From the NCBI RefSeq assembly GCF_014203225.1, contig NZ_JACHIO010000014.1, positions 124,001-188,000 on the forward strand: a stretch of 64,000 bases of DNA. Reading direction: 5' to 3'. Below the pieces are notes generated by a model. The model did no database searches, was not told the DNA's origin, and was given only the letters and a program-made list of their open reading frames with translations. Position 1 is the stretch's first letter; every line of letters starts with the position of its first letter. The stretch comes from Granulicella mallensis (lineage in GTDB: Bacteria; Acidobacteriota; Terriglobia; Terriglobales; Acidobacteriaceae). The translations under genes were made by a program, and so were the position numbers. Below are positions 16,571 to 64,000 of the stretch, piece after piece.

Positions 16571-16763
16571 GCCTTTGCTTTTCTGGTTGTCATTCCGAGC
16601 GTAGCGAGTGAACCTGCTTCCTCCCGCTTTTAACTCGTGCCGATACAGCCTATGCCCTCTTGGTTTCACCCACGGTTTTCTGGGCAATACGAACGAAAAA
16701 CGGGAGACAGCAGGTTCGCTCGCTGCGCTCGGAATGACAACCAGAAAAGCAAAAAGCAAAGGC
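16571..16763. repeat. Palindromic repeat family B (GTCATTCCGAGCG type), copy B1 without gene
   Basis: The arms run from the outside inward as GCCTTTGCTTTTCTGG, TTGTCATTCCGAGCG, (T/C)AGCGAG(T/C)GAACCTGCT. About 80 bp of centre carries no ORF. The same arms flank the GIY-YIG gene at 42985, so this is the gene-less form of that element. The centre contains GATACAGCCTATG, which resembles the -10/ATG junction of the gene-bearing copies. Confidence 0.88.
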
Positions 16764-23625: not shown

Positions 23626-23722
23626 TGGGGTGCGTGTAGCCTTTTTGCTAAGAACATCCCAAAACATTGTCATCTCGACCGGAGGCGCGCTTTTTGCGCC
23701 GTAGTGGAGAGACCCCTGTATT

Positions 23723-23751
23723 TTGCTCGAACTGGCAAAATGCCGGATACT
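23723..23751 (+). promoter_or_regulatory. Possible promoter inside element C1
   Basis: TTGCTC (23723-23728) and GATACT (23746-23751) are separated by 17 bp, as in a sigma-70 promoter. The -10 element ends 7 nt before the ATG of the nuclease gene, so the transcript would start at or next to the start codon (leaderless). There is no Shine-Dalgarno sequence. The -35 hexamer is part of the arm itself. Confidence 0.4.
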
Positions 23752-23758
23752 CAGCCAT

Positions 23759-24082
23759 ATGCGCGAATTCGCCTATGTCTACATCCTCGCGAGCGGCTTC
23801 AAACGCCTGTACATCGGTGTTACCAGCTCGATTGAGAAGCGAATCTTCGAACACAAGAACGGCGCATTTCACGGCAGTTTTACGGAGCGCTACAACATCA
23901 AGTACTTGGTGTACTTTGAGCGGTTCAGCGATATACAAGTGGCTATTGCTCGCGAGAAGCAGTTAAAACGCTGGTCGCGCATTAAAAAGATCCGGCTGAT
24001 CGTTGCGGCGAATCCAGACTGGAAGGACCTGAGCGAAGAGTGGGGTAAGCCAATCGAGCCCTTCCGGGAACCGCAACGGTGA
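23759..24082 (+). CDS. GIY-YIG endonuclease (COG2827/URI type) inside palindromic element
   Basis: This 107-aa single-domain protein carries the GIY-YIG motif as YVYIL (6-10) and LYIGVT (17-22), with catalytic Arg in EKRIFEHK and Glu in AIAREKQLKRW. The length is normal for the small URI-type members. A longer frame from 23723 starts within the repeat arm and was rejected. The gene fills the space between the two arms of element C1. It is a paralog of the nuclease at 42985; both share LVYFERF and AIAREK(Q/E)LK. The likely role, by inference, is nicking or cutting the hairpin-forming arms during movement of the element; related family members are often annotated only as putative nucleases. Confidence 0.88.
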   Translation: MREFAYVYILASGFKRLYIGVTSSIEKRIFEHKNGAFHGSFTERYNIKYLVYFERFSDIQVAIAREKQLKRWSRIKKIRLIVAANPDWKDLSEEWGKPIEPFREPQR

Positions 24083-24183
24083 TTCAAGCACCTGCAAAAT
24101 ACAGGGGTCTCTCCACTACGCATGACATAAAGCCGTCATGCTCCGGTCGAGATGACAGCGTTTGGGGGGGGCTAGTTTAAAAA

Positions 24184-31141: not shown

Positions 31142-31336
31142 CCCCCAATGCTGTCATCTCGACCGGAGGCGGCGTTCTTTGCCGCCGTAGTGGAGAGACC
31201 CCTGTATTTTGCTCGTGCAGGCGATGTTGCCCGATGTGAGCAGTATGGGTGATCGATACACCCTCGAAATACAGGGGTCTCTCCACTGCGCATGACATAA
31301 AGCCGTCATGCTTCGGTCGAGATGACAACGTTTGGG
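31142..31336. repeat. Palindromic repeat family C, copy C2 without gene
   Basis: The same arms as element C1: TGTCATCTCGACCGGAG, inner hairpin, GTAGTGGAGAGACCCCTG, TATTTTGCTCG. The left hairpin is GGCGGC/GCCGCC (GGCGC/GCGCC in C1), a compensated change. The right hairpin GCATGAC/GTCATGC is the same as in C1. The 49-bp centre has no ORF. Confidence 0.88.
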
Positions 31337-42850: not shown

Positions 42851-42971
42851 TGGGCGGTAGGTTTTAGTCGCTGCCTTGTTATTGCCGTTGCTTTTGCTGT
42901 TGTCGTTGCACTTGCTTTTCTGGTTGTCATTCCGAGCGTAGCGAGTGAACCTGCTTCCCGCCCGCTGAGGC

Positions 42972-42977
42972 TATACT
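42972..42977 (+). promoter_or_regulatory. Possible -10 element inside element B2
   Basis: TATACT ends 7 nt before the ATG of the nuclease gene, the same distance as GATACT in element C1. No convincing -35 was found and no Shine-Dalgarno exists, so a leaderless transcript is suggested. Confidence 0.35.
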
Positions 42978-42984
42978 GCCCGCG

Positions 42985-43278
42985 ATGCAAAACCGCGAAT
43001 ACCACTTCTACGTCTACATTTTAAGTAGCAGGTCGCGCGATCTCTATATCGGCATGACGAACAATCTGCGTCTCCGTATCAGCCAACATCGCGAGATGAG
43101 ACCTGGAACCTACACCGCCCAGTACAACATCCATCGTCTCGTGTACTTCGAGCGATTTCAGTATGTTCGCAGCGCTATTGCTCGCGAAAAAGAGTTGAAG
43201 GACTGGACGCGCGAAAAGAAGATGGTGCTGATCGAGAAGGTCAATACGACGTGGGAAGATCTTGCGGCGAGCTGGTGA
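42985..43278 (+). CDS. GIY-YIG endonuclease (COG2827/URI type) inside palindromic element
   Basis: The 97-aa single-domain nuclease has GIY-YIG motif halves YVYIL (9-13) and LYIGMT (20-25), Arg in LRLRISQH and Glu in AIAREKELKDW. It is a paralog of the protein at 23759 (shared LVYFERF, AIAREK, LK-W-R-KK) although the flanking repeats belong to a different family. It sits centrally between the two 59-nt arms of element B2. No Shine-Dalgarno; a TATACT box is 7 nt from the ATG. Enzymatic role by inference: cutting or nicking of the element arms. A general DNA-repair role of URI-type nucleases remains an alternative. Confidence 0.88.
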   Translation: MQNREYHFYVYILSSRSRDLYIGMTNNLRLRISQHREMRPGTYTAQYNIHRLVYFERFQYVRSAIAREKELKDWTREKKMVLIEKVNTTWEDLAASW

Positions 43279-43423
43279 AGCTGGCGTCGTTGCTGCTCCG
43301 GGCGGGAAGCAGGTTCACTCGCTGCGCTCGGAATGACAACCAGAACAGCAAGTGCAAAAACAACAACAACGACAAAAGCAAGAACACCGCCGAGCCAAAA
43401 CAATTGCAGAACACAAAATCAAA

Positions 43424-43460
43424 AGCGGCTGGTAAGGGCAACAACCCCTTACCAGCCGCT
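43424..43460 (-). terminator. Terminator of the PHP-domain gene
   Basis: A perfect 15-bp stem (AGCGGCTGGTAAGGG and its complement) has a 7-nt loop. On the minus strand TTTTGATTTTG follows. It starts 18 bp past the stop codon at 43479. Confidence 0.85.
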
Positions 43461-50910: not shown

Positions 50911-50940
50911 GGCGTGTCATCAAATTTCGAGATCGAACTA

Positions 50941-51283
50941 TGCAACAGCTTGCTGTGGCACTGTTTCGTTAAGGGCATGGCTTCAGCCATGCCGTAGGAG
51001 TAAGGCTCAACCCGCCTTCCTTTCTGCCGAAGGTTGGAGCGAAGGCGAAGCCGTAGCGACCGAATTGCTTTCCTCTATGCCGCCAAGACTGTCTAGGGCT
51101 CGCAGGGATGTATTCGTAGCGAGGGAGTGATTGGTTTCGCCACAACCAAAGAAGGCAATTCAGTCGTTGCGGCTACGCCTTCACTCCAGCCTTCGGCAGA
51201 GAGGTACGGCCTTTGGCTCGACGTTTTACGGCATGGCTGAAGCCATGTCCTTAACGAAACAGCGCCGCGGCAAGCTGTTTGCA
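50941..51283. repeat. Very long inverted repeat, family E
   Basis: Two arms of ~140 nt with moderate identity: TGCAACAGCTTGC.., CTGTTTCGTTAAGGRCATGG, CTTCAGCCATGCCGTA, CTGCCGAAGGYTGGAG, GAAGGCGWAGCCG, GAATTGC. The 14-bp palindrome ATGGCTTCAGCCAT is embedded in each arm. The centre is ~60 bp and codes for nothing recognisable. Confidence 0.82.
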
Positions 51284-51337
51284 CAGTCCAACTTCATCCC
51301 AAGAGCAATTTGATGACACACCCAAAGTCTTCGCGAG

Positions 51338-63348: not shown

Positions 63349-63379
63349 TTGTGCCCGGTCCTGTCAGGACCGGGCACAA
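63349..63379 (+). terminator. Terminator of the M28 peptidase gene
   Basis: A perfect 14-bp stem (TTGTGCCCGGTCCT and its complement) has a 3-nt loop, 26 bp past the stop codon. CAGGTTTTAC follows. Confidence 0.8.
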
Positions 63380-63504
63380 CAGGTTTTACAGCGTATGGCA
63401 GCTCACGGCATAGGGACTTGCAGCGAAGGGGGCTTTACCACCAGCTCTTTGGGAACCTTGAATAGGGACGTCAAGATATCCTTAGTTGCATTCACGGAGA
63501 CGCC

Positions 63505-64000
63505 ATGGCCCACTTCGCACGAATCTCTTCCGTCGCCCTCAGTTGCACACTGCTTGCCTTACCCTTTGCCGCTGCCCAGACAGCACCCGTAACCGCCCAG
63601 CACGCGATGGTCGTCACGATTCACCATGACGCTACCGACGCCGGAGTGGAGATCCTACGCGAGGGCGGCAATGCGGTCGATGCGGCGGTTGCCGTCGGCT
63701 TTGCCCTGGCGGTGGTGCACCCGGCGGCCGGCAACATCGGCGGCGGAGGCTTCATGCTCATTCGCCCGGGCACCAAAGCTCTGGCTCACGGACAGCCGCA
63801 CTTCCTCGACTACCGCGAAAAGGCTCCCGCTGCCGCCGGTACCAACATGTATCTCGACGCGCAGGGGAACGTCATTCCGAAGATGAGCACGGTCGGCTCC
63901 AAGGCCAGCGGCGTTCCCGGTACCGTCGCCGGTCTCACCTATGCGGAGAAACAATATGGCCGGCTGGGCCTCGCGAAGGTGATGCAACCGGCTATCAAGC
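63505..64000 (+). CDS. ggt: Gamma-glutamyltransferase (N-terminal part, runs off the window)
   Basis: The open frame from ATG 63505 (GGAG six bases upstream) runs to the right edge without a stop; 165 codons are visible. It starts with a signal peptide (ISSVALSCTLLALPFAAAQ). The N-terminus of the gamma-glutamyltransferase large subunit follows: HHDATDAGVEILREGGNAVD, AAVAVGFALAVVHPAAGNIG, GGGFMLIRPG, FLDYREKAPAAA, and SGVPGTVAGL. The catalytic Thr lies outside the window. The enzyme cleaves glutathione and gamma-glutamyl peptides in the periplasm. Confidence 0.9.
   Translation, partial: MAHFARISSVALSCTLLALPFAAAQTAPVTAQHAMVVTIHHDATDAGVEILREGGNAVDAAVAVGFALAVVHPAAGNIGGGGFMLIRPGTKALAHGQPHFLDYREKAPAAAGTNMYLDAQGNVIPKMSTVGSKASGVPGTVAGLTYAEKQYGRLGLAKVMQPAIK

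Follow-up and report, generated by a model that had tools for sequence, protein, structure and literature searches.

A GIY-YIG nuclease gene enclosed by inverted CGTC-type REPs in Granulicella mallensis, and the recurrence of this nuclease-repeat pairing across bacterial phyla

The stretch of DNA analysed here (hereafter the window) comprises 64,000 nucleotides, C14:124001-188000, of the 6.47-Mb, 52-contig genome of Granulicella mallensis (G000). Between its GT2, maf and yeaD genes and a PHP gene, neighbours that lie as first noted and keep the names that the preliminary description of this DNA gave them, a small gene for a GIY-YIG nuclease is enclosed by two inverted copies of a palindromic repeat of the family termed B2 (Table 1). 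That description had reported two 59-nt arms with two mismatches at 20 bp from the gene, which the coordinates bear out exactly: each arm is 59 nt long, 2 mismatches separate them, and the gap between arm and gene is exactly 20 nt on either side. The inverted similarity of the arms runs further outwards, with mismatches, to about 88-102 nt. The inverted-repeat score of the module is 121, against best scores of 26-38 at control positions, in line with the earlier judgement that coincidence is unlikely.

Table 1. Positions and strands of the features discussed, counted from the first nucleotide of the window
Feature	Position	Strand	Remarks
Gene-less B2 REP dimer	16589-16738		head-to-head; C14:140589/140715
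C1 module	23658-24167	+	GIY-YIG match at 23765-24043 between C1-family REP arms
Gene-less C1-family REP dimer	31153-31326		C14:155153/155314
Left outer extension of the B2 inverted repeat	42877-42905	+	hexamer-like NTTGYN tract
Left arm, B2-family CGTC-type REP	42906-42964	+	GTCAT head at 42926, tail faces gene
GIY-YIG nuclease gene	42985-43278	+	97 aa plus stop
Right arm, inverted copy of B2 REP	43299-43357	-	head points outwards
Right outer extension of the B2 inverted repeat	43358-43386	-	inverted hexamer-like NTTGYN tract
Bidirectional terminator-like hairpin	43424-43460		separate, outside the B2 module

The 97-aa product matches the Pfam domain GIY-YIG (PF01541; E=5.6e-15, 55.8 bits against a cut-off of 22.6) and carries the catalytic Y, R and E of that superfamily; a search of NCBIfam with the same protein gave no match. 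All of the invariant residues of the family are present (Y21, G23, T25, R31, H35, E68, K72, W74, R76, and N87), among which Y21, R31, and E68 are presumed to be catalytic. The nearest solved folds to its AlphaFold model (pLDDT 91.7, pTM 0.83) were UPF0213 protein BH0048 (1zg2), and then Slx1, EF2693, and UvrC domains. GIY-YIG enzymes are familiar as nucleases and homing enzymes and are not known to act as stand-alone DNA transposases. Comparison of the gene between G000 and the sister species G002 gave dN 0.017 and dS 0.63, which indicates that it is under strong purifying selection.

The genome holds four GIY-YIG paralogs, and all four (4/4) are enclosed by inverted palindromic arms, which belong to three families: B2 (one paralog), C1 (one paralog), and D (two paralogs, both outside the window). 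The C1 arms read GTCATCTCGACCGGAG...GTGGAGAGACC and differ from those of B2, so the assignment of the two to different palindromic families, first made from the window alone, holds. Heads of the form TGTCAT or CGTCAT are found in all three families of this genome and in most of the arms elsewhere, and the family D REP carries an extra inner hairpin.

The B2 repeat is abundant. Its core, GTCATTCCGAGCGNAGCGAGNGAA, was found with up to 3 mismatches in 179 copies genome-wide (90 forward and 89 reverse), and the core read backwards, as a control, in 0 copies. Among the first 100 listed copies, every pair of adjacent copies less than 2 kb apart (34/34) is arranged head-to-head; 33 of these pairs are spaced at 100-147 nt, and the sole wider one, at 388 nt, is the GIY-YIG module itself. 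In G002, the spacing is 128-163 nt in 33 head-to-head pairs; of two wider pairs, one is the module (399 nt) and the other is 1295 nt apart. The gene-less dimer is thus a unit of almost constant size, and the module repeats this arrangement with a gene inside; the gene-less B2 dimer of Table 1 is a non-autonomous form of the family. The conserved unit reaches about 15 nt past the GTCAT head (TTGCTTTTCTGGTT) and then fades through hexamer-like tracts. Hexamer-like NTTGYN units (e.g., TTTGCT) are present in varying number at both outer ends of B2 copies and are inverted between the two ends.

CGTC-tagged REPs have been described as mostly head-to-head dimers with a CGTC or TGTC head, in which AT begins the stem (Di Nocera et al. 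2013; PMC3733652). All three arm families of the genome have the head of this superfamily (CGTC, TGTC, or CCTC), here as TGTC or CGTC, followed by a stem that starts with AT, and the copy number and head-to-head arrangement of B2 agree with that description. The B2 arm has no perfect stem of 8-9 bp with a loop of 4-5 nt, a structure that is present in the arms of S. meliloti and A. lipoferum, and B2 is thus a divergent relative rather than a canonical member of CGTC-1 to -4.

Homologous sites in relatives bear on the age and the mobility of the modules. G002 holds the B2 module at the same site as G000, so the element predates the split of the two species, and within each arm the two genomes share an identical inner stretch of 39 nt (GTCAT to CCCG). 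Near-identical arms had initially been taken as a sign of recent formation, a view not supported in light of the shared element, its unchanged inner arms, and the dS of 0.63 of the gene that they enclose. This dS is 3-5 times that of the correctly framed neighbour genes (0.12-0.21, with GT2 left out because its value was out of frame), while the inner arms are identical. Given the raised value relative to the neighbours, the nuclease gene looks either partly replaced inside fixed arms or unusually fast at silent sites. A search for presence or absence polymorphism had also been proposed for this locus: presence does vary at homologous sites, but the B2 site of the window gave no clean empty allele, as G010 lacks the element but has unrelated intergenic sequence there. 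The C1 site contains the gene in G000 but only a REP pair of that family, with no gene inside, in G002. In Azospirillum lipoferum a module lies between sufB and sufC, and the same site in A. oryzae, A. ramasamyi, and B510 holds neither REP nor gene. The site between fnrL and a response-regulator gene in Sphingobium has a module in 3 strains, a single palindromic REP in 2, and neither in 1. Two sites fit the pattern of a homing endonuclease, whose gene lies in its own recognition site and whose uninserted alleles retain that site, and the Azospirillum sufB-sufC site does not. No clean target-site duplication was seen at the compared sites, where only one ambiguous 2-bp repeat was found. Taken together, the comparative sites strongly indicate that the modules are mobile.

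Several further observations were made at these and other loci. At the place of the module in their relatives, Sphingobium strains TYG64 and TYG74 (L273 and L274) have one near-perfect palindrome (TCCGTCACCCCGGGTCAAGCCCGGGGTGACGGA in TYG64); it resembles a fusion of the outer halves of the arms and is a possible excision footprint. Three insertions of G000 are absent from G002 (C14:15299-15625, 63357-63787, and 174911-175326, the last at 50911-51326 of the window); they are 325-429 bp long, have inverted-repeat character and no obvious ORF, belong to other repeat families, and are possibly RAYT/TIR-related miniature elements. Several of the 11 Y1/RAYT loci of the genome (L278-L288) have inverted repeats of their own kind with scores above 100, a separate REP-like economy. 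On a Planktothrix plasmid (L113), a copy of the module lies between the genes for a type IIL restriction enzyme and a DISARM helicase.

The pairing of nuclease and REP recurs well beyond this genome. A GIY-YIG match was found in 17 of the 28 genomes of the genus (partial only in 2 of them), and scores in the search of 297 genomes of the phylum were bimodal, with at least 97 bits for REP-type proteins and no more than 75 bits for other small GIY-YIG proteins. With a flanking inverted repeat counted when its score was at least 35 within 250 bp of the gene, 49 of the 77 REP-type genes of Acidobacteriota were flanked in this way (33/48 and 16/29), compared with none of the other small GIY-YIG genes of that phylum (0/20) and none of the control positions in the same loci (0/188); the maximum score in an earlier control set (n=108) was 38. 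Flanking inverted repeats were likewise found bacteria-wide at 60 of 80 loci vs. 16 of 1529, the 80 being loci of named genomes, chiefly alpha-proteobacteria but also beta- and gamma-proteobacteria, Bacteroidota, and others. In a plasmid collection, some records of which are evidently chromosomes filed as plasmids, 10 of 12 loci were flanked by inverted CGTC-type REPs. Arms of this type were seen in Neisseria gonorrhoeae (dRS3), S. meliloti, A. lipoferum, Novosphingobium, Sphingobium, Rhizobium, Shinella, Aeromonas, Planktothrix, and Spirosoma; the pairing is not confined to this locality but extends across phyla and across the CGTC REP superfamily. About one quarter to one third of the relatives have no detectable inverted pair, and most of the 20 such loci that we inspected retain at least one REP. 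Copies of the gene number 0-6 per genome, with a patchy distribution and differing genomic sites. In an Aeromonas caviae record (4.9 Mb) and in the genome of Pseudomonas sp. P818 (5.1 Mb), the exact REP pattern, which misses degenerate copies, occurs twice each, and in both cases these copies are the arms of the module; in an S. meliloti record (3.7 Mb) all 3 exact copies lie within about 360 bp of the gene. This confinement suggests that gene and arms travel together and argues against a gene that merely landed in an abundant pre-existing repeat.

Nuclease and arms are not only associated, they are specific to each other and have co-evolved. For the tree congruence check that the preliminary description had called for, arm class was defined by the four bases after GTCA, with one label (TCCT of L003) assigned by hand where the automatic head finder had picked an inner motif. 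On a maximum-likelihood tree of 41 proteins, arm class needs 12 changes, vs. a mean of 22.6 when classes are shuffled (0 of 200 shuffles as low). Shuffles confined to the paralogs within each genome, which remove host phylogeny from the comparison, needed 19.0 changes on average and never fewer than 13 (0 of 2000 as low as 12). Nearly all B2-like rows cluster in a single group (12 rows from several genera), with 2 rows of other classes inside it and 1 B2-like row outside, and classes TCCT and TCTC each arose more than once; the match between class and clade is therefore strong but not perfect. This agreement, together with presence and absence at homologous sites, supports the co-evolved nuclease/repeat pairs that had been suspected from two modules in one window.

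The repeat load of genomes follows the nuclease as well. Of the 35 genomes of the phylum with at least 20 hits of GTCATYYYGASCG, 24 have a REP-type nuclease, vs. 8 of 262 others (p=2e-20, computed from tallies taken by hand and with relatedness left in), and the load of GTCATYYYGASCG is also related to the nuclease inside the family of the window (p=9e-4). In the genus, C1 and B2 counts combined are higher in genomes with a full-length nuclease (p=3e-5), and more than 20 B2 copies occur only in G000, G002, G001, and G010, each of which has a B2-armed nuclease among the subset of loci read. Exceptions with many repeats and no full nuclease match are G152, G220, G137, and, in the genus, G014.

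We consider it fairly probable that the module is a REPtron-like element, in which the GIY-YIG nuclease mobilises itself and the gene-less CGTC-type REP dimers. The nuclease would specifically recognise and cut the REPs that belong to its class (GTC head plus palindrome). Cutting would mobilise its own module and also the head-to-head REP dimers without a gene at other sites of the genome, which would be non-autonomous (REPIN/MITE-like) derivatives of the module; copying might proceed by a transposition-like or a break-repair (homing-like) route. We infer from the patterns described above both the cutting of the arms by the nuclease and the role of this cutting in movement. The wider proposal, that a single-domain GIY-YIG nuclease alone mobilises the CGTC REP superfamily across phyla, each class with its cognate clade, is held more tentatively, with slightly more doubt than belief.

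The serious rival is a homing-like passenger: the REPs would spread by other means, and the gene would copy itself into gene-less REP pairs by cutting, with the arms serving as homology. Sites that hold the gene in one genome and gene-less REPs in another (the C1 site and the solo palindrome of Sphingobium) are what it would predict, and the raised dS of the gene suggests replacement inside fixed arms, but exact REPs that occur only as module arms (Aeromonas and Pseudomonas) or beside the gene (S. meliloti), the sufB-sufC relatives with neither REP nor gene, and a repeat load that depends on the nuclease all argue against it, and we regard it as unlikely. Less probable still, and in our view quite improbable, is a nuclease that serves the host by processing REP hairpins or cruciforms (in regulation or genome maintenance) and mobilises nothing. 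Host service would suit the strong purifying selection and a fold closest to UPF0213 and the structure-specific nuclease Slx1, but it sits poorly with patchily distributed genes in 0-6 copies per genome at different sites, whose divergent paralogs have each their own arm class, and it leaves the arms at the gene itself unexplained.

Two other explanations merit hardly any credence. That the RAYT (tyrosine) transposases of the genome move the GTCAT REPs, the GIY-YIG nuclease being incidental, draws on the 11 PF01797 matches found there, but most RAYT genes are flanked by long inverted repeats that differ in sequence, and GTCAT REPs enclose none of them (an incidental motif lies near a single one), on which grounds RAYTs were rejected as the partner; a 2013 survey likewise found no RAYT with CGTC REPs on its flanks (PMC3733652). 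It is equally far-fetched that the arms act as a bidirectional terminator, or that they came to be paired by accident in a genome dense in REPs, with about 180 copies of B2. A terminator unrelated to the gene had been named at the outset as an outcome that would undo the pairing, but a B2 arm alone folds into a weak hairpin, no terminator-like site was found at the B2 arms, and the terminator-like hairpin of the locus stands apart (Table 1). Comparable arms are missing at control positions and at other GIY-YIG genes, and some genomes have no further exact REP copies; the controls, together with genomes whose exact REP copies are confined to the module, rule out chance proximity in REP-rich DNA.

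If the wider proposal is true, such nucleases would be transposon enzymes without relation to HUH, DDE, or serine transposases. A nuclease cognate to CGTC REPs would bring REP biology a second enzyme class besides RAYTs. CGTC REPs were concluded in 2013 to be apparently without a dedicated transposase (PMC3733652), and the main text of that study does not mention GIY-YIG (PMC3733652). We found no literature linking GIY-YIG to REPs among open-access papers, and the sole co-mention of the two was in a gene list (PMC9465073). As the pairing recurs in many phyla, the nuclease is a strong candidate for the missing REP-spreading enzyme: small, widespread, and cognate to its repeats, it is a direct candidate for CGTC REPs such as Neisseria dRS3 and the common alpha-proteobacterial REPs, and can be tested in vitro. 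The many natural nuclease/repeat pairs also offer material for decoding sequence recognition by GIY-YIG enzymes.

Among known systems, the module resembles the REPtron, or RAYT-REP (REPIN) system, in its single nuclease gene between inverted REPs, its many gene-less dimers of fixed spacing, and its class-specific pairing of enzyme and repeat. It differs in that the gene between the REPs encodes a GIY-YIG enzyme, whereas that of a REPtron encodes a RAYT, an HUH Y1 transposase, and in that its REP heads are CGTC/TGTC rather than GTAG. Known CGTC-tagged REPs of Neisseria (dRS3), S. meliloti, and A. lipoferum serve as arms here, and acidobacterial families whose inner loops are long and variable now join them. 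With GIY-YIG homing endonucleases of the I-TevI type the module shares the catalytic domain, a mobile gene, and possibly mobility by cut and repair, but its nuclease lacks a separate DNA-binding domain, neither intron nor intein is involved, and palindromic repeats flank it in intergenic DNA. The small UPF0213/COG2827 GIY-YIG proteins (1zg2 and 1ywl) share its small single-domain fold, but the 20 other small GIY-YIG genes of Acidobacteriota that were tested are not enclosed by REPs, and the REP-type proteins form a separate, high-scoring group.
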